39,196 nucleotides of DNA from Blastococcus sp. CT_GayMR20 (lineage in GTDB: Bacteria > Actinomycetota > Actinomycetes > Mycobacteriales > Geodermatophilaceae): NCBI RefSeq assembly GCF_004570345.1, contig NZ_SPQM01000032.1, positions 1-39,196 on the forward strand, read 5' to 3'. Every line of letters begins with the position of its first letter. Position 1 is the stretch's first letter. Positions 1 through 30,715 of the stretch are shown one piece after another. The translations under genes were made by a program, and so were the position numbers. The notes under the pieces are model-generated. The model was not told where the DNA came from. It did no database searches and was given only the letters and a program-made list of their open reading frames with translations.

Positions 1-3000
1 CGCGGGCGGCGTCCCGGTCGGATGTCGCAGGTCGACACCTTGCTCTCCTGGATGTGGGTGTTCGGATCCAGGACGATGCCCAGCAGGTCGTTGCCCGAGT
101 CGCCGGTCGAGACTCCCCGCGGGCCCCAGTGGTACGGGACGCCGATCTGGTGCACGATCCGGCCACCCTTGAGGCGCAGCGGACGGATCCGCTCCGTCAC
201 CAGCACCCGCGCCTCCACCGCCGCGCGTCCCGTGACGACCGTCGCCCAGCCGCCGTTCTCGAGCCCGCGCTCGTCGGCCAGCTGCGGACTCACCTCGACG
301 AAGAACTCCGGCTGCAGCTCCGCCAGGTACGGCAGGGTGCGGCTCATCGAGCCGGCCGTGTGGTGCTCGGTCAGCCGGTAGGTGGTGAACGCGTACGGGA
401 AGACGTCGCTCTCCGGGGGATGGGTCCGGTTCCACGGCGCCCGGATCTGCTCCTTGAGCGGGTTCGACTGGACGCTGTAGAGCGGGTTGCCCACCGGGGA
501 CTCCGCCGGCTCGTAGTGCGCCGGCATCGGCCCGTCGACAACACCCTTCGGCGCGAACAGCCAGGCCTTCCCGTCGCTCTGCATCACGAACGGGTCGGCA
601 CCGCCGATCGCGTCCTGCGCCCGGGCGTCGTCCGGGGGCACGTAGTCCGGGCGCTTGGTCGCCTCGAAGTCGGGCACGTCCTCACCGGTCCAGCGGCCGG
701 CCTCCTCGTCCCACCAGACGTACTTCTTCCGCTCGCTCCACGGCTTGCCGGCGGGGTCGGCCGAGGCGCGGTTGTAGAGGATCCGGCGGTTCAGCGGCCA
801 TGCCCAGCCCCACTCGGGCGCCACCTCGTTCTGCTCCTGGCGCGGCTTGCGGCGGGCGGCCTGGTTGACCTCGTCGGCGTAGACGCCGCAGTAGATCCAG
901 CAGCCCCCGCTGGTCGACCCGTCGTCCTTCATCTGCATGTAGCTCGACAGCGCGCGACCGTCGGGGCCGACGCCGTTGATCTCGCGCAGGATCGCCTCGG
1001 CGTCCGGGTCTGCCGTCTCCCCGTGCGTCGGGTAGTCCCAGGTGAGGTCGAGCAGCGGCCGGTCCCGCGGATCCGTGGAGTCCTTCAGCCGTTCGCGCAG
1101 GATCAGGCCGAGGTGGTAGTAGAACCACAGGTCGCTGCGGGCCTCCCCCGGCGGCTCGATGGCCTTGTCCCGCCACTGCAGCATCCGCTGGGTCTGGGTG
1201 AACGTGCCTTCCTTCTCCACGTGCGAGGCGGCCGGCATGAGGAAGACCTCGGTCGCGATCTGGTCGGTGACCAGCTCCCCGGTCTCGATCTCCGGCGAGT
1301 CGTACCAGAAGCTGGCCGACTCGATCTCCTGCAGGTCGCGGACGACGAGCCACTCGAGGTTGGCCAGCCCCAGGCGGTTCATGCGGGAGTTCGGGTGGCC
1401 CACCACCGGGTTCTCCCCGACCAGGAAATAGCCGGACACCTTGCCGGCGATCATGTCGCTGATCGTGCGGTAGGAGCTGTGGTCGCCGTCGATCCTCGGC
1501 AGGTAGTCGAAGCAGAAGTCGTTCTCCGGCTGCGCCGCGTCGCCCCACCACGCCTTGAGCAGGCTGACCATGTACGCCCGCTTGTTGCCCCAGAAGCCAC
1601 CGGTTCCGGCGGCGTCCGCGCAGTAGTCGTCCAGGGACTCGTGCTGGTGGGCGTGCGGCATCGGCAGGTAGCCGGGCAGCAGGTTGAACAGCGTGGGGAT
1701 GTCGGTCGAGCCCTGGATGCTGGCGTGCCCGCGCAGCGCCAGGATGCCGCCGCCCGGCCGGCCGATGTTGCCCAGCAGCGCCTGCAGGATCGACGCCGTC
1801 CGGATGTACTGCGCGCCCACGGTGTGCTGGGTCCAGCCGACCGAGTACACCCACGCCGTCGTCCGCTCGCGGTTGCTGTTGGCGGTGACCCACTCGGCGA
1901 CCGTGAGGAAGACCTCCGGCTCGATGCCGCAGACCTCCTGCACCAACTCCGGCGTGTACCGGGCGAAGTGCCGCTTGAGGATCTGGAAGACCGATCGCGG
2001 GTGCTGCAGGGTCTCGTCCCGCCTGCCCTTGCCGCGCAGCGGCGGACCGCCGGAACCGGCGGCCTCCGCCTGCTTCGCGTCCTTCACCGACTCGGTCTGC
2101 GAGAGCCGCTCCTGCTCCCTCGCCCGGGCCGGGTCGTCCTCGGCGATGCCGTCGTGGCCGTCGTCGTCCAGCTCGTACTGCCAGCTCTCCTGGTCGTAGT
2201 GCCGCTTCTCCGGATCGAAGCCGGAGAACAGGCCGTCGAGGTCCTCGGTGTCCTGGAACTCCTCGCTCACCAGGTTCGCCGCGTTCGTGTAGGCGACGAC
2301 GTACTCCTCGAAGTACAGGTCGTTGCTCAGCACGTGGTTGACCAGGGCGCCGAGGAACACGATGTCCGAGCCGGCCCGCAGCGGCACGTGCAGGTCGGCG
2401 ATCGCGCTGGTGCGGGTGAACCGCGGGTCGATGTGGATGACCTTCGCACCCCGCGCCTTCGCCTCGGTCACCCACTGGAAGCCCACCGGGTGGCACTCGG
2501 CCATGTTCGAACCCTCGATGACGATGCAGTCGGAGTTCGCCAGGTCCTGCTGGGTGTTCGTGGCACCGCCACGACCGAACGAGGCACCCAGACCGGGCAC
2601 CGTGGAGGAGTGCTATATGCGCGCCTGGTTCTCGATCTGGATGGCGCCCAGGGCGCTGTAGAGCTTCTTCATGAGGTAGTTCTCCTCGTTGTCGAGGGTC
2701 GCCCCTCCGAGGCTCGCTATCCCCATGGTGCGGTTGACGCGCCTGCCGTCGCAGTCGTCCTGCCAGGCCTTGCGACGGGCGTCGAGCACGCGGTCGGCGA
2801 TCATCTCCATCGCCGTGTCCAGGTCGAGGTCCTCCCACTCCGTCCCGTACGGACGGCGGTACCGGATCGTCGTGACGCGCGTGGGGCTGGTGACCAGCTG
2901 CTTGCTCGCACTGCCCTTGGGACACAGCCGGCCACGGTTGACCGGGGAGTCGGGGTTGCCCTCGATCTGGACGATCTTCTCGTCCTTCACGTAGACGTTC

Positions 3001-3173
3001 TGTGCGCAGCCGACCGCGCAGTAGGGGCAGACGCTCTTGGCGACCCGGTCGGCGGTGGCGGTGCGCGAGACCACCGCTTCCGTGGCCTTGCTGCGCGCGG
3101 CCTTGCCGCGGCCCAGCGGATCGTTCCCCGTGAGCTGCCGGTACACCGGCCAGGCGTCGAGCCAGGTCTTCAC
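1..3173 (-). CDS. fdh: Formate dehydrogenase catalytic (alpha) subunit, selenoprotein with UAG-coded selenocysteine; 3' end cut by window edge
   Basis: Molybdopterin/tungstopterin formate dehydrogenase of the FdnG/FDH-O type, oxidising formate to CO2. Seen: Cys49, Cys52, Cys56 and Cys84 form the N-terminal 4Fe-4S site, with CPKG at 84-87. The ATG at 3173 overlaps the stop of the upstream ORF (ATGA). The frame stays open to base 1 except for one TAG at 2613-2615 (residue 187), set in NQARI-*-HSSTVPG. E. coli FdnG has NQARV-Sec-HGPT there, so the TAG sits at the selenocysteine and is followed by the conserved catalytic His. Downstream blocks such as AECHPVGF, IDPRFTRT, GWTQHTVGAQ and NRRILYNRAS are all intact. 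About 1,057 residues are visible, ending in STCDIRPGRR, so only a short C-terminus should be missing. There is no twin-arginine signal, so a cytoplasmic location is likely. A charged low-complexity insert lies near 2040-2200. Partner subunits probably lie beyond base 1. Confidence 0.93.
2583..2615 (-). promoter_or_regulatory. UAG selenocysteine codon with bacterial SECIS-like hairpin
   Basis: Reading from the T of the TAG as base 1, bases 15-21 (GGTGCCC) pair with bases 27-33 (GGGTGCC) to give a 7-bp stem with two G-U wobbles. The 5-base loop is GGTCT. E. coli fdhF has the same GGUCU loop at the same bases 22-26 after its UGA. The residues known to matter for SelB binding there, the loop G23 and U24 and the stem U17, are all present here. 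By family knowledge this element recruits SelB with Sec-tRNA. That it acts on a UAG codon here is inference from sequence and from reports on Geodermatophilus and Blastococcus. Confidence 0.85.
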
Positions 3174-3469
3174 ATCCGGAACTCTGCCACTCCATTCCCG
3201 GTCCGGCGCGTCGACGGTGCCTGCTCCCGGCCGTCTGACGAGGCAAGAGGCCGGCCCAGCCGGCTGCGGAGGGAGTCGGCGTCCCGGCGGCGCTTCTCCG
3301 CACCCCGGCCGAGCACGGCCGCCTGGACCGGGTCGGCACTGTTCCGCGCCCGCCGTTCGAGGACGTCGGCCGTCTCCTGCAGCAGGAGCATCCGTCTCAG
3401 GTCCTCGGCCCTCCGCTCACGGAGATGTCCCCGGGATTCCGCGTCCGACTTCCGTCCCCCTGACGCCAT
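3170..3469 (-). CDS. Small charged, probably coiled-coil protein upstream of fdh
   Basis: A 99-residue product with no family I recognise. It starts MASGGRKSDAES, has an Arg/Glu/Leu-rich middle (RERRAEDLRRMLLLQETADV) that looks helical or coiled-coil, and a polar tail. Its TGA overlaps the fdh ATG (ATGA), which predicts translational coupling and argues that it is a real member of the fdh operon. No strong ribosome-binding site precedes the ATG at 3469. A longer form starting at 3577 or a shorter one at the internal MLLLQ is possible. The role is unknown; an assembly or accessory function for the dehydrogenase is only a guess from position. Confidence 0.5.
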   Translation of the reverse strand: MASGGRKSDAESRGHLRERRAEDLRRMLLLQETADVLERRARNSADPVQAAVLGRGAEKRRRDADSLRSRLGRPLASSDGREQAPSTRRTGNGVAEFRM

Positions 3470-3527
3470 GGCCGAATGTTCGCGCCGCGGTCGGCCACGC
3501 GCTACTCGACAGTGGCGGGCGGCCCCG

Positions 3528-3665
3528 TCAGCCGACGGGCGTCGCGAACCCCCGGGCCCGGTCCTCCTGGAGGCCACCCCGGATGACGAGGGTGCACCCG
3601 GCGGCCGTGAGGACGGACAGCAGGAACCACACGGCGAGGGCGGCGAGCACCACGGCGGCGGTCAT
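3528..3665 (-). CDS. Small single-pass membrane protein (45 aa)
   Basis: The 45-residue product begins MTAAVVLAALAVWFLLSVLT, a clear hydrophobic segment of about 20 residues, followed by a short polar tail ending FATPVG. It lies 58 bases upstream of the next minus-strand ORF (start 3469) and in the same direction as fdh. It could be the first gene of that transcript. No good Shine-Dalgarno is visible upstream of the ATG. I do not recognise the family. Support is the hydropathy pattern, codon choice and position only. Confidence 0.4.
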   Translation of the reverse strand: MTAAVVLAALAVWFLLSVLTAAGCTLVIRGGLQEDRARGFATPVG

Positions 3666-3674
3666 GCAGCAATG

Positions 3675-3711
3675 GTGACCCATGCCGCTTCTGTCCGCGA
3701 CTCCGGGTCAC
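3675..3711. promoter_or_regulatory. Inverted repeat upstream of the fdh operon
   Basis: GTGACCC at 3675-3681 is the reverse complement of GGGTCAC at 3705-3711, with 23 bases between. It sits in the only gap between the tyrosine kinase gene (ends 3725) and the first fdh-operon ORF (starts 3665), where the operon promoter must lie unless transcription comes from further upstream. An operator role is inference; the arms are short. Confidence 0.3.
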
Positions 3712-3724
3712 ACCAACGTGCCGA

Positions 3725-5101
3725 TCAGCTCCCGTCCGGCGCCTTGGGCCCGTACGCGTACGTGTACTGGTAACCGAACGCCGCGGTGACGTCGGACTTC
3801 GGCGGGACGACGTTCAGGATCACGCCGAGCGTCTTCGCGCCCACGCGGTCGAGGGTCGCCCGCACCTGCCGCAGCTGGTCCTTCTTCGTGCTCCCGTAGC
3901 GGACCGAGAGGAGGACGCCGTCGACCAGGACCGCGACACCGGTTCCGTCGGCCACCGGCAGCAGCGGAGGCGTGTCGACGATGACGTAGTCGTTGTCGTC
4001 GCGCAGCTGCTTGAGCAGCGCCGCCATGTGGCTGGACGCCAGCAGCTCACCGGGGTTGGGCGGGACCGGGCCGGCGGCGATGACCGACAGCTTCCCGTCC
4101 CCCCAGGGCTGCAGGACGTCCTCGACGTCGGCGTTGCCGGTGAGGATGCTGGTGAGGCCGGCGCCCTCGATGAGACCGAGGTACCTCGCGACCATCGGCT
4201 TGCGCAGGTCCGCCTCGATGAGGGTGACCCGCCGCCCCGCCTGGGCGAGGGCGATGCCGAGGTTGACGGCCGCCGTGCTCTTGCCCTGGGACGGGATCGC
4301 GCTGGAGATCATGATGACCTTCGGCGGCTTGTCCACGCTCAGGAACTGCAGGTTGGACCGGAGCTGCCGGTACCCCTCGCCGGCGCCGCTGCTGCGACCG
4401 CCGTCGCTGACGACGTGCTGGGCGTCGACCGAGTCGTCCTTCAGGATCATCCCGATCACGGGTGCGCCGGCCAGGTCGGAGGCCTCCTCCGGGTCGCGCA
4501 CCGAGCGGTCCCAGCGGGCCCGCGACAGGGCGAGGACGACGCCGAGGACGAGCCCGAGCACGATGCCCATCGCGATGTTGCGCACCGTCAGGGGCGAGCT
4601 GGGCACGGCCGGGAGCTCGGGCGCCTGCGTGACGGTGACCGTGATCGCGGACCCGCCGTCGTCCTGCCCCTCCAGCTGCGTGACCAGGCGCGGGAACTGC
4701 TCGCCGAGGGAGTCGGCGATCTGCTGCGCCCGTGCCGGGTCGGGATCGGTCACGGTCACGTTGATGAGGACGGTGTCCGTGACGACCGAGGCGGTCACCT
4801 CGGCGGCGAGCTCGCCCGGCGTCATGTCCAGTTCCAGGTCCTCGATGACCCGGCCGGCCACCTCGACCCCGGTGAGCAGCTCGGAGTAGGACGTCACGCG
4901 CTGCTGCGACAGCTGGCTGCCCTGCAGGGCGTCGGTCGCCGACAGGGAGCCCGTGGTGGACACGAAGAGCTGCGTGTGCGCGGTGTAGAGCGGCGTCGTC
5001 GTGAAGCTCAGGACCAGGGCGATCAGCCCGCCGATCACCAGACCTGCCACGGGGAGCCACCAGCCGGCCCGTATCGCGGCCCAGGCGTCCCTCAGATCCA
5101 C
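3725..5101 (-). CDS. Polysaccharide co-polymerase / tyrosine autokinase (Wzz domain fused to BY-kinase)
   Basis: A 458-residue membrane kinase that controls chain length and export in Wzy-dependent polysaccharide assembly. Seen: a Wzz domain with transmembrane helices near 13-33 and 173-193, and a Pro-rich PELPAVPSSP (161-170) before the second helix. The cytoplasmic BY-kinase domain has Walker A AIPSQGKST (268-276), Walker A' TLIEADLRKP (293-302) and Walker B YVIVDTPP (372-379). The C-terminal Tyr cluster YQYTYAYG is the expected autophosphorylation site. The A' motif reads E-A-D where D-A-D is usual. Start: GTG at 5101 preceded by GGAGGAG. The gene diverges from the polymerase gene across a 310-base gap. 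The phosphatases at 16371 and 19950 are its likely antagonists (inference). Single-chain Wzz-kinase fusions are common in Actinobacteria. Confidence 0.92.
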   Translation of the reverse strand: MDLRDAWAAIRAGWWLPVAGLVIGGLIALVLSFTTTPLYTAHTQLFVSTTGSLSATDALQGSQLSQQRVTSYSELLTGVEVAGRVIEDLELDMTPGELAAEVTASVVTDTVLINVTVTDPDPARAQQIADSLGEQFPRLVTQLEGQDDGGSAITVTVTQAPELPAVPSSPLTVRNIAMGIVLGLVLGVVLALSRARWDRSVRDPEEASDLAGAPVIGMILKDDSVDAQHVVSDGGRSSGAGEGYRQLRSNLQFLSVDKPPKVIMISSAIPSQGKSTAAVNLGIALAQAGRRVTLIEADLRKPMVARYLGLIEGAGLTSILTGNADVEDVLQPWGDGKLSVIAAGPVPPNPGELLASSHMAALLKQLRDDNDYVIVDTPPLLPVADGTGVAVLVDGVLLSVRYGSTKKDQLRQVRATLDRVGAKTLGVILNVVPPKSDVTAAFGYQYTYAYGPKAPDGS

Positions 5102-5411
5102 AGTGCTCCTCCAGTGCCGGTCGCAGACGAGTCCCCCGCCGCCAGTGCGATCGACCGAGGATAGGTGTCCGGACGGCGTATTTCGGCCGGTTCCACCTCC
5201 GAAGGGGGAAGGTCGTGCAGCCCGCCACCTGCGCAGGGGCTCACCCTCTCGCGGCAGGAAGCCGCCCCCGGCCTCGACAGACGCCCCCCGGGACGCTCCA
5301 CTGAGGGGCGCGCGGCGAGCCCCAACCGCGGCCGGGAAGTGTCAGAGTGGGGAACCCGTCGGCCGCCGACGGTCCGACGCGCAGTGGTGGACGAGCAGGG
5401 GGCAGGGGTCG
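5102..5411. promoter_or_regulatory. Divergent promoter region of the exopolysaccharide locus
   Basis: This 310-base gap has no convincing gene. It must carry the promoters of the tyrosine kinase gene (minus) and the polymerase operon (plus). On the minus strand TATCCT (plus 5158-5163, aggata) is a possible -10 for the kinase, with no clear -35. GGAGGAG at 5105-5111 (minus) is the ribosome-binding site of the kinase GTG. On the plus strand a G-rich run ending at 5409 precedes the polymerase ATG. No operator could be identified by eye. Confidence 0.4.
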
Positions 5412-6905
5412 ATGGCGAGCGGGGGGGCACGATTCAGCCAGCACTACACCGTGGTGCCCGGCGCCGTCCTCCTGCTCGCGCTGCCCTGGCTGTGGATGGT
5501 CGACAACGGCCTCCAGGCGGCCCTCCTGGTCACCCAGCTGCTGCTGTGCACGTTCGGCATCGTCAGCAGCTACGTCACCGGCCTCCGCCCCGTGCGGCTG
5601 GTCTTCTTCAGCTTCGTGTTCTCCTGGCTCGGGGTCGGCCCGCTCTACCAGGTGTCGCACCGCCAGCTCGCCTGGCAGGACTCCGACCTGCTCAACAGCA
5701 CCGACATGGTGACCGCGGCGCTCGGCCTCACGGTCCTCTTCACCGCGGCCGTCTCGGCGGCGATGTGGCAGGTGGGCACCCGGGCGGCGCGGACGCCGCC
5801 GCCGCGGACGATGGTCGTGCCCCGGGAGTGGGCGCCGTGGGGCTTCCTGGGCGCGCTGGTGGCGATCACGCCCTACGTCGTCGCGACCAACGGCGGGGTG
5901 GGCTCGTTCTTCGCCTCGCGCCAGGACCGCGTCAGCGAGCTCATGCAGGGCGGCGTCTCGCTCGCCGGCGCCGGCGGCGCCTCGGTCGCGCTCGCCCAGA
6001 TCGTGCCCGCCGCGCTGGCCGTGGCGACGGCGCACCTCTTCATCCTGCACGCCCGACGCACGAGCACCGGAGAGGGCTGGACGACGACGGCGCTGCCGAC
6101 CGCAGCAGGCCTCGGCGCGGCGCTGTCCTTCGTCGTCCTCTACGCCAACCCGCTGAGCAACACGCGGTTCATCAGCATCGCGGCGTTCGGCTCGCTCGCG
6201 TTCGCGATCGTCCGGCCCCGCTCGCCCCGGGCCGGACAGTGGATCGCCGTCCTGCTGTCCGTCCTCACGCTCGCCGTCTACCCGTTGAGCTACCTGCTGG
6301 CGCCGGAGGCTCCCGGCGCCGGCGACCGGTCGTCGTTCGCGGTGTTCGGGAGCCAGGACTTCGACGGCTTCCAGCAGATCGTCAACTCGCTCATCTACGT
6401 GCAGGACCACGGGTACAACCTCGGCCGCTACACGGTCTCGGCACTGCTGTTCTTCATCCCGCGGGCGGTGTGGCCGTGGAAGGCCACGCCGTCCTCGATC
6501 GACGTCGCCGCGAACCGTGACTACTGGTTCACCAACCTGTCGATGCCGGTGCACGCCGAGGTCTTCCTCGACGTCGGCCTCATCGGCATGCTGATCTTCG
6601 GGTTCGTGCTGGGGCACGCCTGGGCCCGCATCGACCACGCCTGGCTGACCAGTCCGGCGAGCCTGGGCGCCTGGCTGGCGCCGTTCCTCGCGATGGCTCA
6701 GCTCGGCTTCATCCGCGGCCCGCTCGGCTCGCTCTCGCCCATCTGGCTGACCGTCACGGTGCTCCTGCTGGTGGGCGTCCGGCGGGTCCCCGTCGACGTC
6801 GCACCGGAGGCCGCACCCGCCGTGCCGCCGGCCGGCGACTACGTCATCACGCGGGCCGGCGCGGCCGACACCCGGCCGGGTCCTCCCGGCCCGGGCACCG
6901 GCTGA
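5412..6905 (+). CDS. Wzy-like oligosaccharide repeat-unit polymerase
   Basis: A 497-residue polytopic membrane protein. About ten or more hydrophobic helices are spread along the chain, for example VVPGAVLLLALPWLWMV near the N-terminus and LSPIWLTVTVLLLVGV near the C-terminus. A periplasmic-loop-like stretch holds the SQDFDGFQQIVNSLIYV, FIPRAVWPWK and SMPVHAEVFLDVGLIGML segments, which resemble O-antigen/EPS repeat-unit polymerases. It would join lipid-linked repeat units outside the membrane. The ATG at 5412 is chosen because hydrophobic sequence begins just after it and a G-rich ribosome-binding region precedes it; the open frame further upstream has non-coding composition. It is first in a plus-strand run with glycosyltransferases and a flippase. 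Wzy proteins diverge strongly, so the call rests on topology, short motifs and context. Confidence 0.82.
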   Translation: MASGGARFSQHYTVVPGAVLLLALPWLWMVDNGLQAALLVTQLLLCTFGIVSSYVTGLRPVRLVFFSFVFSWLGVGPLYQVSHRQLAWQDSDLLNSTDMVTAALGLTVLFTAAVSAAMWQVGTRAARTPPPRTMVVPREWAPWGFLGALVAITPYVVATNGGVGSFFASRQDRVSELMQGGVSLAGAGGASVALAQIVPAALAVATAHLFILHARRTSTGEGWTTTALPTAAGLGAALSFVVLYANPLSNTRFISIAAFGSLAFAIVRPRSPRAGQWIAVLLSVLTLAVYPLSYLLAPEAPGAGDRSSFAVFGSQDFDGFQQIVNSLIYVQDHGYNLGRYTVSALLFFIPRAVWPWKATPSSIDVAANRDYWFTNLSMPVHAEVFLDVGLIGMLIFGFVLGHAWARIDHAWLTSPASLGAWLAPFLAMAQLGFIRGPLGSLSPIWLTVTVLLLVGVRRVPVDVAPEAAPAVPPAGDYVITRAGAADTRPGPPGPGTG

Positions 6906-7062
6906 GGGGCAGCGACCGGGCAAAACGGTTGCAGACTCCACCCATCGAGGGAGAACCCCTCCTGCGGGACCACCCGATTCGGTTAACGTCCCCAGGCCAG
7001 ACCAAAACCGGCGTTTTCTCGGGTCGCCGACCCGGGTCCGCCGGCTCCGCAGGGGGAGATCC
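6906..7062. promoter_or_regulatory. Gap with two short inverted repeats before the first glycosyltransferase
   Basis: AAAAC (7004-7008) and GTTTT (7013-7017) flank CGGC, and CGGGTC (7020-7025) and GACCCG (7029-7034) flank GCC. GGTTAACGT near 6981-6989 could contain a -10 element. AGGGGGAG ending at 7059 is the ribosome-binding site for the GTG at 7063. An internal promoter or a leader hairpin is plausible but unproven. Confidence 0.3.
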
Positions 7063-8121
7063 GTGGACGCCAGCGATCTGACCGTTCTCCACGTGCTGCC
7101 GCACGTGCAGGAGATCGGCAACGGCATCGTGGACGTGACCGTCGATCTCGCCATCGCCCAGGCCGCGGCCGGGCTCTCCGTCGTGGTGGCCTCCGGGGGC
7201 GGTGAGTACGAGGACCTGCTCACCCGGCACGGCGTGACCTGCATCCCGCTCACGCTGCGGCCCGAGGGCCTCCTCGAGAGTCGCCGGATCGTCCGGAGGC
7301 TGCGGCCCTCGGTCATCCACACCCACACGCTGAAGGGCCTGGCGCTGGCCCGCGCGACCGCGGGGGGCATCCCGGTCCTCAACACCGCGCACCGCGACCT
7401 CGGTCGCTGGTCCCGGGGCATGCGCATGGCCCACCGCGTCCTCGCCGTCAGCGACGGCATCGCCGAGACGCTCGGGCAGGTCATGGACCCCGCCCGGATC
7501 ACCGTCGTCCGCAACGGCGTCCTGGGTGGCCCCCGGCGGCAGCCGCTGCTGGACCTGCCCGCCGCGGACCTCCGTCGTCCCTCCGTCGTCTTCGTCGGCG
7601 GCATGTACACGCACAAGGGCGTGGGCGTCATCCTGCGGGCCTTCCGCCGTCTCCTGGACGACGAGCCCGGCCTGGGTGCGCGGCTGTACATGGTGGGCGA
7701 CGGCCCCGACCGCGCCCAGTACCAGGAACTCGCCACGACCCTCGGCATCGCCGACCACGTCGAGTGGGCGGGCTTCCGCCGCGACGCCTACGCCTACATC
7801 CGCGGCTGCGACGTCTTCGCGCTGCCCTCGCTCGAGGAGACCTTCGGCCTCGTGCTGGCCGAGGCCCGCGAGGCGGGCGCACCCATCGTCGCCGCAGCCA
7901 CCGGGGGCGTCCCCGAGGTCCTGGAGCACGGCCGCGCCGGGCACCTCGTGCCCCGGGACGACGTCGACGCCTTCGCCTCGGCCCTGCGCGCGGTGCTCCT
8001 CGACGAGACGGAGCGCATCCGGCTCGGGAAGGCCGCGAGCGAGGGCCTGGACTGGCTGGGCGTCGACCGGATGCACCGCGACGTCCTCCGTGCATACGAC
8101 AGTGTCCTTGAAACCGCATGA
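7063..8121 (+). CDS. Glycosyltransferase family 4 (GT-B fold)
   Basis: A 352-residue cytoplasmic or membrane-peripheral retaining glycosyltransferase, presumably adding one sugar to the lipid-linked repeat unit. Seen: an N-terminal Rossmann-like segment (TVLHVLPHVQEIGNG), PSVIHTHTLKG in the acceptor half, and FVGGMYTHKGVGVILRAF opening the nucleotide-sugar half. The GT4 EX7E motif is E259-E267 in LEETFGLVLAEA, followed by a Gly-rich ATGGVPEVLEHG. The GTG start has AGGGGGAG just upstream. The stop overlaps the start of the flippase gene by four bases (ATGA), predicting coupling. Donor and acceptor sugars cannot be read from the sequence. Confidence 0.9.
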   Translation: MDASDLTVLHVLPHVQEIGNGIVDVTVDLAIAQAAAGLSVVVASGGGEYEDLLTRHGVTCIPLTLRPEGLLESRRIVRRLRPSVIHTHTLKGLALARATAGGIPVLNTAHRDLGRWSRGMRMAHRVLAVSDGIAETLGQVMDPARITVVRNGVLGGPRRQPLLDLPAADLRRPSVVFVGGMYTHKGVGVILRAFRRLLDDEPGLGARLYMVGDGPDRAQYQELATTLGIADHVEWAGFRRDAYAYIRGCDVFALPSLEETFGLVLAEAREAGAPIVAAATGGVPEVLEHGRAGHLVPRDDVDAFASALRAVLLDETERIRLGKAASEGLDWLGVDRMHRDVLRAYDSVLETA

Positions 8122-9512
8122 ACGACACCCCCGCACAGGGCCCGGTTGCCGCTACGCTGCGGCGCCGCGGGCCTGAGGCGGACGAGTTCGTCCCATCCGC
8201 CGGCGCCCCGGCAGACGAAGACACCGCGAACGGGCCCGGCGCCCGACGACGATCCGCGGGGGGGTGGGTGCTGAGGGCGGTCCGGCGGGTGTCCATCCCG
8301 GTTCCCGTGCGGCGCATGTTCGTCTTCGCCCTGATGCCTGTCCTGTCGACGCTGTCCAACCTCGTGCTCCTGCCGACGATCAGCTCGACCTTCGGCCAGG
8401 CCGGGTGGACCAGCGTCGTGCTCGGCCAGGGCATCGGGGCCGCCGTCTCCGTCGTGTGCTCCCTGCAGTGGCCCACCGAAGGGCCGGCGCTGGTGGCCCG
8501 AGCCCCGTCGCCGCTCGCGCAGGCGATGCTGCGGGCCAGCATGCGCAGCCGCCTCGTCGCCCTCGTGGCCTGCCTCCCGTTCGCCGTCGCGCTCATCGTG
8601 ATCGTCGACCCTCCGGAACTGCTGGTCTGCGTGCTGAGCTGCCTGGCCACCGCCGCCATCGGCATGTCCCCGATGTGGTACGCGGTCGGCATCGGCCGGC
8701 CGTCCATCCTGATCTGGCTCGAGGGCATCCCCCGACTGGTCGGCAACCTGCTCTCGTTCGGGCTGATCCTCGGGGGCGCACTCCTGTGGACCTATCCGGC
8801 CGTGATGCTCGCCGTCTCGGTCTTCACGGCGGTGGTGTCCTGGTTCCTCCTCGCCGGAGGCATCCGGGGCAACGGGCAGGTGTGGCGCAACGAGCAGAAC
8901 CGCCGCTCGGTGAGCTTCGCGACGCTCGCCCGTTCCCTGGACGCGGGCTACAACTTCATCCTGGGCCCCGTCGTCGCGCTGCTCGCGCCCGCGGCCTACC
9001 CGGTCTTCGGGGCGTGCGACCGCCTCGGCAAGGTCGTCATCAGCGGCCTGTCCATCGTTCCCCAGGGAGCGGCGGGCTGGGCGGCCGAGCCGCACGACGA
9101 GTCGGTCCGGATCCGCCGCGTACGGCTGGCGCGGGCCTGGATCATGCCCGTGGCGCTTCTGCTCTTCGTCTTCCTGACGTTCGCCACGCCCACGCTCGTA
9201 CACCTGCTCTTCGCAGGCACCGTCGAGGTGAGCCTCTCCACCAGCGCCCTCCTGGCCGGCGTCGTGTGCATGGCCTTCCTCGCCCAGTTCCTCTTCCTGA
9301 CGGGCCTGGCCCCCACCGGTCACGCGACCGCCGGGTACCGGTACCTCGTCATCGGGTTCGCCGTCGGACTGCCCTCCCTGGTGGTGGGCACCCTGCTCTG
9401 GGGCGCCAACGGCGCCTTCCTCGGCGTCCTCACCGCGGGAGCGCTGCTCGTCGGGCTCTCGCTGTGGCGGATCAGGACCGCCATCCGGCAGGTGAGCGTC
9501 GCGGCCGCCTGA
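8118..9512 (+). CDS. Wzx-like polysaccharide flippase (MOP superfamily)
   Basis: A 464-residue polytopic membrane protein with a polar N-terminal tail of about 65 residues and then roughly 12 hydrophobic segments in repeated pairs. The first is MFVFALMPVLSTLSNLVLLP. Overall length and topology fit Wzx/PST-type exporters that flip undecaprenyl-linked repeat units. Recognisable stretches include FGACDRLGKVVISGLSIVPQ and the terminal NGAFLGVLTAGALLVGL. It overlaps the upstream glycosyltransferase gene by four bases and is followed after 61 bases by another glycosyltransferase. Sequence identity within Wzx is low, so the assignment leans on topology and on sitting between glycosyltransferase genes in an EPS locus. 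Confidence 0.8.
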   Translation: MNDTPAQGPVAATLRRRGPEADEFVPSAGAPADEDTANGPGARRRSAGGWVLRAVRRVSIPVPVRRMFVFALMPVLSTLSNLVLLPTISSTFGQAGWTSVVLGQGIGAAVSVVCSLQWPTEGPALVARAPSPLAQAMLRASMRSRLVALVACLPFAVALIVIVDPPELLVCVLSCLATAAIGMSPMWYAVGIGRPSILIWLEGIPRLVGNLLSFGLILGGALLWTYPAVMLAVSVFTAVVSWFLLAGGIRGNGQVWRNEQNRRSVSFATLARSLDAGYNFILGPVVALLAPAAYPVFGACDRLGKVVISGLSIVPQGAAGWAAEPHDESVRIRRVRLARAWIMPVALLLFVFLTFATPTLVHLLFAGTVEVSLSTSALLAGVVCMAFLAQFLFLTGLAPTGHATAGYRYLVIGFAVGLPSLVVGTLLWGANGAFLGVLTAGALLVGLSLWRIRTAIRQVSVAAA

Positions 9513-9573
9513 TCGCGGCCCCCGCACGACCGCCACCGCTTCCCCGCGTCCCGGTAACGGAGGAACCTGATCC

Positions 9574-10761
9574 ATGCGCAGAGTCATGTTCGTCGGTCAC
9601 ACCGCCAAGACCTCCGGCGGTGAGATCGCGCTCGTGCGGCTCATCGACGCCCTCCGGGGGCGGATCGAGCCGGTCGTCGTCCTCGGGGAGGACGGCCCGC
9701 TCGTCGGCACGCTGCAGGGCATGGGGGTCGACGTCCGCGTCGTGCCCCTCGGCGACGACACCCGCAACCTGCGCAAGGAGCGGCTGGCCAATCCCCTGGT
9801 CGCGCTCGGCCGCGTGCGCGACATCGTCCGGTACTCCCGGGGCCTGGCCGCCCTGATGCGCGAGCTCCGCGTCGACATCGTGCACACCAACACCCTCAAG
9901 GCGGGCTTCTACGGCTGCCTGGCCGCGCGCCTGGCGGGGATCCCGAGCGTGTGGCACGTCCGCGACCGCCTGGCCCCCGACTACCTGCCACGGGTCGCGG
10001 TCCTGGCCACCCGCCTGGGGACGGCGGTGCTCCCCACCCGCGTCCTGACCAACAGCCGCGCCACCTTCGCCACGCTGTCCCCGCGGTCGTTCGCGGTGCT
10101 CGGCCGGAAGGCCGCCCTGACGCCGCCCATCGCCGACCCGCTGGACGCCGGCACGGTGCCCCAGGCGCCGCCCCGCGCGGAGGGTGCACCCTTCCGCATC
10201 GGCATGGTGGGGCGCCTCTCCCCCTGGAAGGGCCAGGTCGTCGCCGTCCGCGCCTTCGCCGCCGCCGGTCTGCCCCCCTCCGCGCGGCTGGTGCTCATGG
10301 GCTCGGCCATGTTCGGCGAGCAGGAGTACGAGCGGGAGATCCACGCGGAGGTCGACCGGCTCGGCCTCCGGGACCGCGTCGAGTTCGCCGGCTTCGTCGA
10401 CGACGTCCTCGGCGCCCTGGGCACGTTCGACGTCCTCGTGCACGCCTCGACCATCCCGGAGCCCTTCGGGCAGGTGGTCCTCGAGGGCCTGGCCGCCGGC
10501 GTACCGGTCGTCGCCACCCGCGAGGGCGGCCCCGGGGAGATCGTCACCGACGGCGCGGACGGACTGCTCTACGACGCCGGCGATGCCGACGCCCTCGCCG
10601 AGCGCCTGCGCGAGCTCCACTCCGATGCCGCGCTGCGGGCGCGGCTGGCGCGGGGCGGCCGCGCACGCGCGGCAGACTTCGCACCGGAGGTCGTCGGCGG
10701 GCAGGTGCTGGCGCTCTACGACGGCATGGTCGGCGCACGGCGATCGGGGCAGACGGCATGA
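9574..10761 (+). CDS. Glycosyltransferase family 4
   Basis: A 395-residue GT-B enzyme of the GT4 family. The N-terminus MRRVMFVGHTAKTSGGEIAL and VDIVHTNTLKAGFYGCLAA are typical of the acceptor-binding half. IGMVGRLSPWKGQVVAVRAF opens the donor half. The EX7E motif is E296-E304 in PEPFGQVVLEGL, followed by VVATREGGPGEIV. GGAGGA about 12 bases ahead of the ATG supports this start. It ends in an ATGA overlap with the next glycosyltransferase gene. It probably adds a later sugar of the repeat unit; substrates are unknown. Confidence 0.92.
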   Translation: MRRVMFVGHTAKTSGGEIALVRLIDALRGRIEPVVVLGEDGPLVGTLQGMGVDVRVVPLGDDTRNLRKERLANPLVALGRVRDIVRYSRGLAALMRELRVDIVHTNTLKAGFYGCLAARLAGIPSVWHVRDRLAPDYLPRVAVLATRLGTAVLPTRVLTNSRATFATLSPRSFAVLGRKAALTPPIADPLDAGTVPQAPPRAEGAPFRIGMVGRLSPWKGQVVAVRAFAAAGLPPSARLVLMGSAMFGEQEYEREIHAEVDRLGLRDRVEFAGFVDDVLGALGTFDVLVHASTIPEPFGQVVLEGLAAGVPVVATREGGPGEIVTDGADGLLYDAGDADALAERLRELHSDAALRARLARGGRARAADFAPEVVGGQVLALYDGMVGARRSGQTA

Positions 10762-11831
10762 GGACCGTGGTCGTCCACGACTACTTGACCCAGCGGGGCG
10801 GCGCCGAACGCGTCGCCCTGGAGATGACCCGGGCGTACTCGACGCGCGAGTTCGTGACGTCCATGTACGCCCCGGACCGCACCTTCCCGGAGTTCCGGGA
10901 GCTGGACGTGACGACGCTGCCCGTCGACCGGGTGCCGTTCCTGCCCAAGGACCCACGCCTGGCCCTCCCCGTGCTGGGGGACCTCTTCCGGCGCCACCGG
11001 ATCGAGGACGCCGACCTGGTGCTCGCCTCGTCCTCGGGCTTCGCCCACCAGGTCTCGAGCACCGCGCCGAAGGTCGTCTACTGCCACAACCCCCCGCGCT
11101 GGCTGCACCAGCCCGAGGACTACCTGCCCGGGGTCGGAGCCCCGGCCCGCCTCGCCCTGCGGCTGGTACGCGGCCGGCTCACCCGCGGCGACGCCCGCGG
11201 CGCCGGCAGCGCAGCGGGGTACGTCGCCAACTCGCGCAACGTGGCCGACCGGATCCGGCGCGTCTACGGCATCGAGGCGCACGTGGTGCACCCGCCGCGG
11301 GGACTGGAGCCCGACGGTCCGCTGGAACCGGTGGAGGGCCTCCCTCCGGCGTTCCTGCTGACGGTCGGCCGCGCCCGTGGCTACAAGCGGACCGGCCTGC
11401 TCATGGAGGCCGTCGCGGGCATGCCCGACCTGACGCTGGTCACTGTGGGCAGCGACTCCGCCGACGAGTGGCCGGACAACATCCGGCAGCTGGTCGGGGT
11501 GTCCGACGGCCAGCTGAGGTGGCTCTACCGGAACGCGACCGCCCTGCTCGCGTGCTCGCGCGAGGACTTCGGGCTGACCCCGGTGGAGGCGTTCAGCCAC
11601 GGCACCCCCGTCGGGGCGACCGCCGAGGGCGGCTACCTCGAGACCTGCGTCGACGGCCTGACCGGCCGCTGGCTCGACGACTCCTCGCCGGAGTCACTCA
11701 GGACGTCGATCCGCCGGCTCGTGTCCGAGGACTGGGACCGGGACGTCATCCGCGCCCACGGCGAGCAGTGGTCGCCGGCGGCCTTCCACCAGCAGCTCGC
11801 CGACGCCGTCTCCGGGATCGTGAAGGCATGA
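10758..11831 (+). CDS. Glycosyltransferase family 4
   Basis: A 357-residue GT4 enzyme beginning MRTVVVHDYLTQRGGAERV, the typical start of mannosyl/rhamnosyl-type GT4 proteins. It contains VYCHNPPRWLHQPEDYLPG, a donor-half start LTVGRARGYKRTGLLMEAV, and an EX7E pair E269-E277 in REDFGLTPVEAFSHG. The ATG overlaps the preceding stop (ATGA), so the two glycosyltransferases are translationally coupled. A 226-base gap follows before the adenylation-domain gene. The CHNPPRW motif recalls mannosyltransferases of the WbaZ type, but the sugar is not assigned. Confidence 0.9.
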   Translation: MRTVVVHDYLTQRGGAERVALEMTRAYSTREFVTSMYAPDRTFPEFRELDVTTLPVDRVPFLPKDPRLALPVLGDLFRRHRIEDADLVLASSSGFAHQVSSTAPKVVYCHNPPRWLHQPEDYLPGVGAPARLALRLVRGRLTRGDARGAGSAAGYVANSRNVADRIRRVYGIEAHVVHPPRGLEPDGPLEPVEGLPPAFLLTVGRARGYKRTGLLMEAVAGMPDLTLVTVGSDSADEWPDNIRQLVGVSDGQLRWLYRNATALLACSREDFGLTPVEAFSHGTPVGATAEGGYLETCVDGLTGRWLDDSSPESLRTSIRRLVSEDWDRDVIRAHGEQWSPAAFHQQLADAVSGIVKA

Positions 11832-12057
11832 CCCGGGCGCCGTCCGCCACCTCCGTACGGGGTGAGAGCGCGGAGGATTGTCTTGACGCTCGCATAACGC
11901 TGGGCAAGGGTCTGGCTTCGCGATGGAACCACATGGGGGCTCGGATGTCGGTCACGGCCTGGGGGCGGTCAGTCCCCGCCGGAGGAACAGCGACCCCGGC
12001 GACGCAGCCACGAACAGCCACCATGGCACCGAACAGGAACACGAGGATCTGAGCGAG
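11832..12057. promoter_or_regulatory. Gap before the adenylation-thioesterase gene
   Basis: This 226-base stretch has no convincing gene. TTGACG at 11882-11887 could be a -35 element, but no good -10 lies 16-19 bases downstream. The last bases before the ATG at 12058 (GATCTGAGCGAG) give at most a weak ribosome-binding site. A separate promoter for the downstream gene is possible. Confidence 0.25.
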
Positions 12058-14784
12058 ATGACTTCAGGAACCACGGACTCGAGTCTTCCCCCGCTCGTGA
12101 TGCCCGGGCCCTCCACCTCGGTGAGCGAGCGGCTGGAGGAGGTCGCCCGCCACCTCGGGGACAAGGTCGCCGTCGAGTCGGCCGACGGCCGGCTGACCTT
12201 CCGCGAGCTGGTCGACCGCGTCGACGCCCTGGCAGCCGAGATCGCGCCACTCCTGCGCGACATGCGCGACACGGACAACGGGGACACCCCCGTGCGTCGC
12301 CCGGTCGGCCTGTTCGCCGAGCAGGGCACCGACAGCGTGGCCGCGATGCTGGCCGTCATGAAGTGCGGCCACCCGTGCGTCGCCCTGGACTCGGTCCTGC
12401 CGGACGCCCGCGTCAGCCAGATCGCCGAACTGGCCGACGTCGGGATGATCCTGACCGACGCGCCGCGGCGCGAGATCGCCGCGTCCTTCCCGGGATCGCC
12501 GATCGTCCGCGGACTCCTGCCGGAGGGCTCCGCGCCGGCGACGCCGGTCGACCTCCCACCGCCGAGTCAGGACGACGTCATCTCGCTGGTCTTCACCTCC
12601 GGGACGACGGGCAAGCCCAAGGGCGTGGTGTGGACGAACCACACGCTCCTCTCCATCTCCTACACCGCCCGCGACACCATCGGGTTCAACCCGGACGACC
12701 GGGTGTCGATGATCATGCCGCAGGCCTTCGCCGCCGGTCAGATGCTGATCTTCGCCGGCCTCCTCAACGGGGCGTCGCTGTGCGTGCGCGACCCCCGGGT
12801 GCACGGCATCAAGGACATGACGGAGTGGCTGCGCGCCATGGACGTCACCACGCTGCACCTGACCCCTGCGCTGCTCCGTGCACTGCAGGACGAACTGCCG
12901 GAGGGGACGGTGCTGGAGTCCGTCCGCGTGGTCACCACGGCCGGCGACAAGGTGTACGGCAAGGACGTCGACTCCTTCCGGCCCTACGTCTCGCCGGACG
13001 CGGTCTTCGTCAACTGGCTGGGCAGCTCCGAGACCGAGGCGCTGACCTATTTCAAGATCGGACCCGGCGACCCCGTGCCGGAGGGCGTCGTCCCCGCCGG
13101 CAGAACCGTGATCCTCCGCGAGCTGAGCATCCGCACTCTCGAGGGCGAGCCGCTGCCGGCCGGCGAGGCCGGCGTCCTGCACTGCACGTCGGCCCACATG
13201 TCCGTCGGCTACTGGAAGGACCCCGAGGGCACCGCGGCGGTCTTCACGCCGCTCGAGGACGGCCGCACCACCTTCCGCACCGGTGACCGGGCCACGCTCA
13301 CCGAGGACGGGATGCTGCACCTGCTCGGCCGGGCCGACGACGCGGTGAAGATCCGCGGCTACCTCGTGGAACCGGGCGAGGTCGAGTCGGTCCTCCGGAA
13401 GTTCCCCGAGATCGCCGACGTGGCCGTCCGCGCCATCCCCGGTCGTGACGAGGAGAAGCGGCTGGTCGCGTGGGTGGTGCCCGACCCGCACCACACCAGC
13501 ACCCCGTCGCCGGCGAGCGTCCGGTCGACGCTGTCCCGCCTGCTGCCGGCGTACATGGTTCCCGGCGACGTCGTCATGCTGACCGCGATCCCCCGCAACG
13601 AGCGCGGCAAGGTCGTGGCCGCGGAGCTGCCGGCACCGCCGACCCGTCCGGAGCCGACACCTCCGGCAACCGACGGCGAGGCGGCGATGCAGCGGATCTG
13701 GGCGCCGATCCTGCGCCTGGACTCCGTGGGCCGGGACGAGAGCTTCACCGCTCTCGGCGGCGACTCCCTCGCCGTCGAGGAGATGCTGGCGGGGGTCGAG
13801 GCGCAGTTCGGGGTGTCGCTCACCACGGCCGACCTCGCTGAGCACCCGAGCCTGGCCGAGTTCACCGAGCTGGCCGAGTCGGGCCGCGAGAGCGGCTCCG
13901 TCGTCCGGGCGGACACGCTCGTCCGGCTGCACCCGGCCGGCACCGCGGCCCCGCTGTTCTGCTTCGCCGGTGCCGGGGGCGCCGCCGCGCTCTTCGAGGT
14001 GCTGGCCGAGGCCATGGGCCCGGACCAGCCGGTCTACGCGTTCCAGGTCAACGGCTTCGAGAACCCCGGGATGCCCGACTGGACCGTCGGCAGGGCCGCC
14101 CGGCGCTACGCGCGGATCATCCAGCAGGTCGCGCCGGAGGGCCCCGTGGTGCTCGCCGGCCACTCCCTCGGTGGACTGTTCGCCCTGCGGGTGGCCCGGC
14201 TCCTCGGTGAGCAGGGACGCGAAGTGGCCCTGGTCGGGCTGCTCGACACCATCCTCCCGCCCGCCGCACGCGGCGGCGAGGAGGACGGGCGGTGGTCGAA
14301 GGCCCGGCTCCGGCGGCGCCGGCCGGTGCTCGTCGCGGCGGCCCTGTACGAGTTCCTGCTGCCGACGACGCTCCGGCGCCGCCGGAACGCCCGCCGGGAG
14401 GCGGCGGAGGGCCTGACGCGTCCCGAGGACTCGATCCGTCCCCAGCGTTCCTACCTGCGCACCCGGCTGCGGATCCTGGGCGCCGGATTCGGCAAGTACG
14501 ACTACGCCGAGCGCAAGGACATCTTCAACCTGCACGGCATCGGGATCGCACAGTTCCACCGCCCGCGACCGTGGCACGGCCGCGCCCTCGTCTTCTACTC
14601 CGACGAGAACCGCGACCCCCACAGCTGGTGGGACGTGCTGCTCCCGGGGCCGCACGAGTTCATCACGATCGAGGCCAGCCACGTCGCGGTGCTCAAGTGG
14701 CCCTACGTCGAGCAGATCGCCGGCCCGCTGATCACGGCGATGGAGGAGCTGGGTCTCCGACGACCGGCCACGGCCACGCGCTGA
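12058..14784 (+). CDS. Single-module NRPS-like protein: adenylation, peptidyl-carrier and thioesterase domains
   Basis: A 908-residue enzyme. The adenylation domain (about 20-525) has core A3 LVFTSGTTGKPKGV (178-191), the A5-like NWLGSSETE, FRTGDRATLTEDGMLHLLGR and the catalytic Lys518 in NERGKV. The carrier domain has LGGDSL at 566-571, with Ser570 as the phosphopantetheine site. The thioesterase domain (about 640-905) has GHSLGG at 701-706 with nucleophile Ser703, a likely acid in LLDTIL and a likely His in EASHVAVLKW. By family it would activate a carboxylic or amino acid, load it on the carrier and release it by hydrolysis or transfer. There is no condensation domain. Inside the EPS locus it may supply an acyl or aminoacyl decoration of the polymer (inference). 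The ATG at 12058 is the first good start before MTSGTTDSS; upstream codons look non-coding. Confidence 0.9.
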   Translation: MTSGTTDSSLPPLVMPGPSTSVSERLEEVARHLGDKVAVESADGRLTFRELVDRVDALAAEIAPLLRDMRDTDNGDTPVRRPVGLFAEQGTDSVAAMLAVMKCGHPCVALDSVLPDARVSQIAELADVGMILTDAPRREIAASFPGSPIVRGLLPEGSAPATPVDLPPPSQDDVISLVFTSGTTGKPKGVVWTNHTLLSISYTARDTIGFNPDDRVSMIMPQAFAAGQMLIFAGLLNGASLCVRDPRVHGIKDMTEWLRAMDVTTLHLTPALLRALQDELPEGTVLESVRVVTTAGDKVYGKDVDSFRPYVSPDAVFVNWLGSSETEALTYFKIGPGDPVPEGVVPAGRTVILRELSIRTLEGEPLPAGEAGVLHCTSAHMSVGYWKDPEGTAAVFTPLEDGRTTFRTGDRATLTEDGMLHLLGRADDAVKIRGYLVEPGEVESVLRKFPEIADVAVRAIPGRDEEKRLVAWVVPDPHHTSTPSPASVRSTLSRLLPAYMVPGDVVMLTAIPRNERGKVVAAELPAPPTRPEPTPPATDGEAAMQRIWAPILRLDSVGRDESFTALGGDSLAVEEMLAGVEAQFGVSLTTADLAEHPSLAEFTELAESGRESGSVVRADTLVRLHPAGTAAPLFCFAGAGGAAALFEVLAEAMGPDQPVYAFQVNGFENPGMPDWTVGRAARRYARIIQQVAPEGPVVLAGHSLGGLFALRVARLLGEQGREVALVGLLDTILPPAARGGEEDGRWSKARLRRRRPVLVAAALYEFLLPTTLRRRRNARREAAEGLTRPEDSIRPQRSYLRTRLRILGAGFGKYDYAERKDIFNLHGIGIAQFHRPRPWHGRALVFYSDENRDPHSWWDVLLPGPHEFITIEASHVAVLKWPYVEQIAGPLITAMEELGLRRPATATR

Positions 14785-14856
14785 GGCCGCGGCTCCGGGT
14801 CCCGCGTGGGCCCGGAGCCTCCGTGATCGACCCAGCAGGACCACGGGGACGGTGAG

Positions 14857-16347
14857 ATGCGCCAGGGGTCCGGCGGCCTGAGGGACGCCGCACGCCGACC
14901 GTGGGCCGTCGGGGGCGTCGTCCTCGTGGTGCTGGCGGCCGTGGTGGGTGTCCTGGTCGTGCGCTCGGACCGTTCCCCGGGAGGTCCGCTGCCCTTCGAC
15001 CTGCCCGCCGGGTCCTCCCTGGAGGACTCACCCAGGAAGGTGTTCGCGCACTACTTCCCGCCCTACCCGATCTCGCTGGACAACGAGGACCCGGACCGCG
15101 ACTACTACGCCGTCCACTACCTCGACCCGCTGGGGGAGGAGGGCAGGCATGCGGCCTACGGCGGCTTCCTGCGCGAGCGCCCGCTCCCCCGGCCGGTGAG
15201 CGACGACCCCGACTGGGCCCTCGAGGACATGCGCACGGAGATCCGCCGCGCGACCGGCGCCGGCATCGACGGGTTCACCGTCGACCTGCTCGGGCTGGAG
15301 GGCAGCGACTACTGGCCGACGGTCCTGCTCCTGCTGCGGGCCGCGGACGAACTGGACTTCGACATCGTGCTGATGCCGGACGCCACCACCGAGACGGTCA
15401 ACGATCCGGCCGTCCTCGCCGACGCCGTCGCGGGGCTCGCGGAGGAGCACCGGTCCCTCTACCGGCTGGACGACGACCGGCTCGTGGTCTCCCCGTTCTC
15501 CCCCGAGACCGTCGGCGCCGGGTGGTGGTCGGGCTGGCTGGACACCATGCGCACCGGGCACGGGCTCGACGTGGCGCTCGTGCCCTGCTTCGTCACCCTC
15601 GACGCACCGGCCGCCGACGCCTTCGCGCCGATCAGCCACGGACTGTCCAACTGGGGGGACCGCAGCCCCGCGTTCAACACCGACCTGCAGCGCAATGCGG
15701 CCGACGCCCACGACCGCGGGCTCATCTGGATGCAGCCGGTGTCGGTGCAGGACCAGCGCCCGGCCCAGGGGGTCTTCGACGAGGCGAACAACACCGAGAA
15801 CCTGCGGGTGACGTGGCAGGGGGCGATCGACGGAGCCGACTGGGTGCAGCTGACCACCTGGAACGACTACTCGGAGGGCTCCGAGTTCGCCCCGTCGACG
15901 CACATCGGCTGGGGTCCCCTGGACATCAGCGCCTACTACCTCGTCCGGTTCAAGACCGGCCGGTGGCCGACGATCACCGACGACGTCCTGCACGTCTCCC
16001 ACCGCGTGCAGTTCGCCGACACCAGACCCAGCCGCCAGTCCCGGTTGATGGAGCTCCGGCGGGGAAGCAGCCCGACGCGGGACGACGTGGAGGTGCTGTC
16101 GTTCCTGACCGCCCCGGCGACCGTGACGGTGACCATCGGGCAGGAGACGCACGAGTACGAGGCGCCCGCGGGCGTCTCCGCGTTCCGCGCTCCCCTGCAG
16201 GTCGGCGAGATCTCGGCGGGGGCGGTGCGTGAGGGATCCGACGACGTCTCGGTGACCTCGCCGTTCCCCGTGCAGGAGACGCCGGAGATCCAGGACGAGC
16301 AGTACTACTTCGTCAGCAGCGCCCGTCCCCCGGCGTCCTCAGGCTGA
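14857..16347 (+). CDS. Membrane-anchored GH71-like glycoside hydrolase (possible alpha-1,3-glucanase)
   Basis: A 496-residue protein with one N-terminal transmembrane segment (about 17-37, VGGVVLVVLAAVVGVLVV), which predicts a catalytic domain outside the membrane. The domain begins VFAHYFPPYPISLDNEDPD and includes GIDGFTVDLLGLEGSDY, IWMQPVSVQDQRP and TWNDYSEGSEFAPS. The last resembles the WNDYGE motif of glycoside hydrolase family 71, known for alpha-1,3-glucan hydrolysis. A related alpha-glycosidase family such as GH99 is the alternative. It directly follows the adenylation-thioesterase gene (72 bases), so it probably trims or releases the polymer made by this locus. It converges with the phosphatase gene at 16371, leaving 23 bases. 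Confidence 0.75.
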   Translation: MRQGSGGLRDAARRPWAVGGVVLVVLAAVVGVLVVRSDRSPGGPLPFDLPAGSSLEDSPRKVFAHYFPPYPISLDNEDPDRDYYAVHYLDPLGEEGRHAAYGGFLRERPLPRPVSDDPDWALEDMRTEIRRATGAGIDGFTVDLLGLEGSDYWPTVLLLLRAADELDFDIVLMPDATTETVNDPAVLADAVAGLAEEHRSLYRLDDDRLVVSPFSPETVGAGWWSGWLDTMRTGHGLDVALVPCFVTLDAPAADAFAPISHGLSNWGDRSPAFNTDLQRNAADAHDRGLIWMQPVSVQDQRPAQGVFDEANNTENLRVTWQGAIDGADWVQLTTWNDYSEGSEFAPSTHIGWGPLDISAYYLVRFKTGRWPTITDDVLHVSHRVQFADTRPSRQSRLMELRRGSSPTRDDVEVLSFLTAPATVTVTIGQETHEYEAPAGVSAFRAPLQVGEISAGAVREGSDDVSVTSPFPVQETPEIQDEQYYFVSSARPPASSG

Positions 16348-16370
16348 CCGGTCCGGCGGTCCGCCCCGGC

Positions 16371-17015: not shown

Positions 17016-17104
17016 CGAACGTCCACGTCCTTCCCGTGCCGCATCCCGGGGAGAGGAAGCGGTCCTGCTGTCGATCGAGGTGGCGCCGGACCCGGTCAGG
17101 GCCG

Positions 17105-20687: not shown

Positions 20688-20702
20688 CCCGACCGGCGGC
20701 GG

Positions 20703-20957: not shown

Positions 20958-21027
20958 GAGCGCATCCTGGCCGAGACATGGTGCTCCTGGGCGTCCCGGA
21001 GACCCGAGACCCGGGCGGGACCGTTCG

Positions 21028-30470: not shown

Positions 30471-30473
30471 GGC

Positions 30474-30683: not shown

Positions 30684-30715
30684 GCCGGAGGGCCGCGCCC
30701 AGGGGACGGTGTTCG

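Follow-up and report, generated by a model that had tools for sequence, protein, structure and literature searches.

The window, by which we mean the whole 39,196-nucleotide stretch analysed here, begins with a formate dehydrogenase major subunit gene (fdh) on the reverse strand (Table 1). The frame opens with a GTG and runs to base 1, where the window edge cuts the gene and approximately the last 15 model positions are absent. Reading of this frame from 3173 to 1 revealed a single stop, the TAG at 2613-2615, which is preceded by 186 residues and followed by 870 open codons up to the window end. The translated frame matches the family model NF041513 (formate_DH_Act) with 1927 bits against a cut-off of 1400, the match (residues 4-1057; model positions 2-1052 of 1067) extending full-length across the recoded codon. 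Pfam identifies Molybdop_Fe4S4, Molybdopterin and Molydop_binding domains. When aligned with E. coli FdnG (PDB code 1kqf), residue 187 coincides with the selenocysteine (Sec, given as X), with NQARI-187-HSST corresponding to NQARV-X-HGPT, directly before the catalytic His. The same residue also aligned with the X of 1h0h_A. An earlier note on this DNA had placed an in-frame UAG at the Sec position of formate dehydrogenase (FDH), and both its coordinates and its alignment proved right upon reading of the frame and comparison with 1kqf. No tRNA genes were found in the window.

Table 1 Features of the fdh locus and of the second Sec locus in G014 (Geodermatophilus sp. LHW52908). Positions refer to the window unless a locus is given.
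Feature	Location	Strand	Basis
fdh, formate dehydrogenase major subunit	1..3173	-	GTG start at 3173; NF041513, Pfam
N-terminal Fe4S4 domain, 5' of the TAG	2892..3047	-	PF04879, residues 43-94
AUA isoleucine codon just 5' of the TAG	2616..2618	-	invariant in TAG copies
In-frame TAG, predicted selenocysteine codon, residue 187 (U187)	2613..2615	-	alignment with 1kqf_A
Putative SECIS region directly 3' of the TAG	2562..2612	-	covariance model R1
Predicted apical SECIS stem-loop, 7 pairs closing a GGUCU loop	2583..2601	-	fold
tRNASec(UCA), G014	L113:1169-1263	-	beside AhpD-like gene
CMD/AhpD-like gene with in-frame TGA at CFY-U-MESH, G014	L113:1579-2157	+	PF02627

The nearest relative of the window fdh on the FDH trees is that of G047 (92% protein identity), and the window copy sits inside the main clade of TAG-containing genes. 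Similarity to G047 extends over four window segments that keep the same order in both: positions 1-3217 with 90.6% nucleotide identity, and positions 22142-26724, 32792-36042 and 36097-38918, which are collinear, with 77-78%. Given the closest fdh and this collinearity, the sequence comparison identifies the window as a piece of a Blastococcus-like chromosome, and the main TAG clade together with the collinearity places it within the Geodermatophilaceae.

We inspected the codon at the Sec site in related genes. A scan of genome contigs gave 231 fdh loci, and among the best 80 of these the codon was TAG in 24, TGA in 52 and TGC in 3, with one locus (L023) lacking the site. The TAG loci among the best 80 of 231 belong to Blastococcus, Geodermatophilus and Klenkia, or to bins and strains grouping with them. 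Following addition of copies from whole genomes and removal of duplicates, the set contained 68 distinct TAG copies (window included), 52 TGA copies and 3 TGC copies; L023, which starts after the site, and L271 and L272, from which the stretch is missing, were left out of the site count. TAG occupies the site in all 67 other distinct family copies read that contain this site. At the level of genomes, FDH was found in 100 of the 112 family genomes, and 98 of these 100 contain a match that spans the site and is interrupted by a single in-frame stop, TAG, the stop position having been read directly in the 68 distinct copies. The other two are G023, whose copy starts after the site, and G086, where the stretch is missing from both copies; the genome-level listing of stops gives none for G023, and two TGA and one TAG, unplaced, for the two G086 copies. 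The G086 copies (L271 and L272) lack 93 and 74 bases (relative to L280) with the same end base, and the missing stretch holds the Sec codon as well as the SECIS; this gap is either a real loss or an assembly fault.

These data bear on the possibility that the gene is a decayed pseudogene or that the TAG is a sequencing error. The stop alone could be read in this way, as could the truncation of the gene at the window boundary. However, a read error at 2613-2615 is unlikely because the TAG recurs in all 67 other copies, and decay is at odds with the 870 open codons, the 1927-bit family match and the retention of paired third bases in the hairpin described below. We consider this explanation very improbable, in agreement with the earlier note, which had argued against a pseudogene.

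The predicted hairpin directly 3' of the TAG fits the SECIS of UGA-type relatives. A covariance model (R1), for which 34 of the 52 UGA-type copies served as input, matched the window at 2562-2612 with 73.6 bits (E = 3.2e-13), a score that derives in part from conserved coding sequence; the next best match reached 10.9 bits. The Rfam model SECIS_3 gave a weak match at 2567-2612 (24.2 bits, below its gathering threshold of 63). The loop start is 18 bases downstream of the TAG, within the distance of 16-37 quoted for bacterial SECIS loops in the available part of PMC10778597. Pairing between codons +5 and +9 at their synonymous third positions is possible in 68/68 TAG copies (51/51 in the first set, before copies were added) and in 52/52 TGA copies, as opposed to 0/3 Cys copies. 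When TAG and TGA copies were reduced to distinct 51-base stretches, pairing was seen in 73 of 73 compared with a shuffle mean of 35.7, and 0 of 5000 shuffles, which ignore kinship, reached 73. For 34 TGA copies, 100% of cells in the whole stem are paired, versus 95.3% in shuffles and at most 68.1% in slid versions, with changes on both sides at only one of the six stem pairs. Codon +7 is GGT in 67 of 68 TAG copies, while GGT makes up 355 of 4177 glycine codons elsewhere (51 copies). Folding of individual sequences was uninformative: taken alone, the window hairpin is no more stable than its shuffled versions (z = -0.47), z ranged from -2.12 to 0.17 over five copies, and a search with the short pattern CCCGGTCTGGG allowing one mismatch did no better than chance.

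The Cys-type actinobacterial enzymes (L063, L077 and L079) share the enzyme family and the frame with the window gene, but carry TGC at the site and retain neither the GGT-CTG loop codons nor the pairing of the third bases. This contrast is relevant to a model in which UAG mainly terminates, so that the products would be an Fe4S4 protein of 186 residues and a C-terminal protein with its own start, Sec insertion being marginal. A comparison with database proteins, for which the best 120 of 7997 scored were listed, contains 45 proteins with at least 78% identity. All are 868-915 amino acids long, covering 79-82% of the frame, and PF04879 (Fe4S4) is absent from all 45 among the matches listed. 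Such proteins would be compatible with separate products, but they are gene predictions, and truncation of the gene by automated annotation was anticipated in the earlier note and is borne out by these same matches. A separately started C-terminal part would be devoid of both the Fe4S4 domain and Sec, and the conservation of the SECIS stem and loop codons at synonymous sites of TAG copies, in contrast to their loss in the three Cys copies, speaks against predominant termination, which we regard as highly unlikely.

The earlier note had further proposed a search for tRNASec(CUA), selA, selB and selD, and this was carried out in relatives, using the 112 genomes of the family of G002 (Geodermatophilaceae bacterium URHB0062). 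We detected tRNASec in 108 of 112 genomes at E values of 1e-11 or better, and weaker matches to the tRNA-Sec model (up to 52 bits, some above the cut-off of 47) were taken for other tRNAs. The CUA anticodon occurs in 101 of the 112 genomes (24 + 16 + 60 anticodon calls, with G014 added from alignment) and UCA alone in 7; only G014 among the 101 has both. The selA gene was found in 109 genomes (108 over the cut-off), selB in 106 and selD in 111 (110 over the cut-off). Wherever tRNASec was detected in a genome carrying a TAG fdh, the CUA form was present, and in G047 the one tRNASec match, again CUA, is adjoined by selA, selB and selD. As an outgroup control, 5/5 UGA-type genomes searched have tRNASec(UCA). 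From its relatives, the window organism would be expected to possess the same set of tRNASec(CUA), selA, selB and selD. No tRNASec match was obtained in G076, G080, G104 and G105 among the 112 genomes searched; for G104 and G105, in which TAG fdh pieces are present, selA and selB were likewise not found. The fdh pieces of these two genomes lie on short contigs of 8770 and 3197 bases, and both genomes are therefore likely incomplete. The seven genomes with UCA alone (G075, G077, G078, G079, G081, G082 and G083; 2.5-3.7 Mb) are all without this FDH and may represent the condition that preceded the codon switch. One metagenome bin, G001, contains two different tRNASec(CUA) genes (on C25 and C168) and is perhaps a mixed bin.

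It should be noted that ARAGORN labels the CUA tRNAs of the family as tRNA-Pyl, which would fit a reading of the UAG as pyrrolysine. However, with the Rfam tRNA-Sec model (cut-off 47) these genes reach 64-70 bits, and the CUA gene of G047 adjoins selA and selB. PylS exceeded its cut-off in 0/112 family genomes (8 weak matches of 26-28 bits), and alignment with 1kqf identifies the site as the Sec site of FDH. Pyrrolysine is thus exceedingly improbable.

We conclude, with a probability of approximately 0.95, that the UAG at 2613-2615, at the catalytic Sec position of fdh, is read as Sec by tRNASec(CUA) via SelB and the hairpin. The CUA anticodon would read the UAG as selenocysteine, with SelB delivering the tRNASec by binding to the hairpin directly 3' of the codon; Sec insertion and formation of the full-length enzyme in the cell are what we infer from this arrangement. 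Compared with UGA-dependent FDH, such as E. coli FdnG (1kqf) and the actinobacterial copies, the enzyme and the Sec position are the same, and the hairpin is common to the window and the actinobacterial UGA copies, whose loop is GGUCU or a one-base variant. The codon differs. RF2 acts at UGA and RF1 is the competitor at UAG, and the recoding would accordingly compete with RF1 rather than RF2. We propose that it would be context-dependent, as opposed to a genome-wide reassignment. Of 20 frames that were selected in the window for their codon composition, four end in TAG: fdh, one antisense to fdh, a GDPD gene (33941-34786) and a TetR gene (36826-37437), the latter two with Pfam support. As these two recognisable genes end in TAG, UAG likely remains an ordinary stop elsewhere in the window organism, with context determining the recoding.

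UAG-coded Sec of Geodermatophilus and Blastococcus was reportedly established by Mukai et al. 2016 (Angew. Chem.) using 75Se or mass spectrometry. The earlier note had pointed to this precedent, and UAG-coded Sec in the Geodermatophilaceae is indeed already published at the family level, so that the window represents a further case. The available passages of PMC5330540 describe three Geodermatophilaceae tRNASec with CUA together with selenoproteins containing the matching codon (FDH, UGSC-motif proteins and an AhpC with TAG), and credit Mukai et al. 2016 for UAG-coded Sec. The use of UAG for Sec in some bacteria is also noted in reviews and other papers; the passages of PMC7609411 contribute nothing further to this. 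With respect to the published Geodermatophilus and Blastococcus cases, the family, gene family, codon and tRNASec(CUA) in relatives are the same; what differs is a further species, a set of 112 genomes, SECIS covariation, the invariant AUA, five TAG clades and a genome with two tRNASec. The literature searched, which comprised titles, abstract openings and passages and few subscription papers, contained no broader surveys, no genomes with two Sec codons and no rewriting of genes following transfer. Within that literature we did not meet five TAG FDH clades set against one SelA clade, AUA in 68/68 copies or a Geodermatophilus with two tRNASec. A natural, working shift of Sec between stop codons is rare, and here it can be traced through a whole bacterial family at the level of gene, tRNA and hairpin. 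Sec proteins of these bacteria can readily escape notice or receive a wrong label, since the Fe4S4 domain is missing from the closest database entries and the tRNA is assigned to tRNA-Pyl by ARAGORN.

The codon preceding the TAG is ATA in 68/68 copies. Elsewhere in 51 TAG copies, the 1583 Ile codons counted include 39 ATA, of which 33 occur at one other site. In the window this second site lies at 2718-2720, within M/L-G-I-A-S and 35 codons 5' of the TAG; it has ATA in 33/51 TAG copies. The base before TGA in the 52 TGA copies is T in 47, A in 4 and C in 1; four UGA copies (L036, L038, L048 and L069) have ATA before the TGA, and A at -1 is therefore not exclusive to UAG. An analysis of 5 independent pairs found the link between UAG and A(-1) to run the same way in 3.4 on average and never the opposite way (median p = 0.25), five pairs being too few for significance. 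As to the origin of the AUA bias, RF1 competition or an effect of the P-site tRNA would be a guess.

G014 combines both anticodons. A tRNASec(CUA) gene is located beside selA and selB, whereas tRNASec(UCA) is found on contig C17, next to an AhpD-like gene with an in-frame TGA (Table 1). The fdh of this genome uses TAG, and one selB and one selA were found. A 7-pair hairpin is present 3' of the AhpD-like TGA, with a stability that does not exceed that of shuffled sequences (z = -0.74). The G+C content of C17 is 64% in the first 5 kb and 70-79% further on, and frames that look transposase-like in translation lie near the tRNASec(UCA) region. Positions 43000-48000 of C17 match 109/112 family genomes including G014 (longest matches elsewhere 76-84%), and the contig is therefore not an obvious contaminant. 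Judged from these genes, two selenocysteine codons are possibly in use in one G014 cell.

The TAG copies fall into five groups among the TGA copies on the FDH trees: the main group with the window (60 rows), L117 with L233, L232, L263, and L265 with L267 and L269. The seven copies outside the main group are nested among or near UGA-type copies, and all have AUA-TAG. An AU test on 55 of the 122 tree rows, picked after the first trees had been seen, rejected a single TAG clade (p = 1.2e-7). In contrast, SelA of CUA genomes forms one clade (36/36 rows, support 100) in a tree that covers 36 of the 101 CUA genomes and in which 20/50 inner branches are weak; G052 is the only one of the seven genomes with foreign fdh copies in this tree. 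Of those seven, six have tRNASec(CUA) (G003, G031, G052, G065, G099 and G111) and none was found in G104. Since SelA points to one clade and TAG fdh to five, the reading machinery looks to have been inherited once, with fdh of other descent carrying TAG too, which suggests that foreign UGA fdh genes were rewritten to TAG.

The L263 copy illustrates this. Numbering the first base of the recoded codon as 0, the only differences of L263 from its UGA-type relative L047 in the stretch from -24 to +29 are those at -1, +1 and +2 (ATA TAG versus ATT TGA), while the resident copy in the same genome differs from L263 already at -4 and +9. Rewriting after transfer appears to be the simplest reading of this pattern. 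Gene conversion by the resident TAG copy is a possible alternative for L265, L267 and L117, with tracts of approximately 32-38 bases; for L263 and L233 nearby bases differ and would restrict any converted tract to at most about 12 bases. This comparison covered five of the seven foreign copies, namely L263, L233, L265, L267 and L117. It is also possible that the foreign copies came from an unsampled donor already using UAG. Returning to rewriting, we tentatively put forward a scenario to which we assign slightly less than an even chance: the switch from UGA to UAG would have occurred once, in the machinery, with the code thereafter filtering incoming genes; at least four foreign UGA-type fdh genes would have been rewritten in place to AUA-UAG, A(-1) being part of the signal; and the code could reopen, with G014 using UAG for FDH and UGA for an AhpD-like protein that is island-borne and has a tRNASec(UCA) of its own, one SelB serving the two codons. 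The clearest case of rewriting would amount to three changed bases, and the scenario is tempered by the possible conversion tracts and by the fold of the AhpD-like hairpin. Repeated appearance of TAG in FDH of different descent would make the crossing of genes between two codes testable, both by sequence and with reporters.

Within the window itself, the fdh and start region is closer to G047 DNA than the collinear flank (90.6% versus 77-78% identity), reflecting either strong constraint or recent exchange. Two further segments, 3218-22141 (~19 kb) and 26725-32791 (~6 kb), have no match in the G047 stretch compared. The larger contains a Wzz/kinase-like gene, a glycosyltransferase, an adenylation-carrier-thioesterase gene (11923-14784) and a PIG-L gene with F5/8 type C domains (17105-19711).
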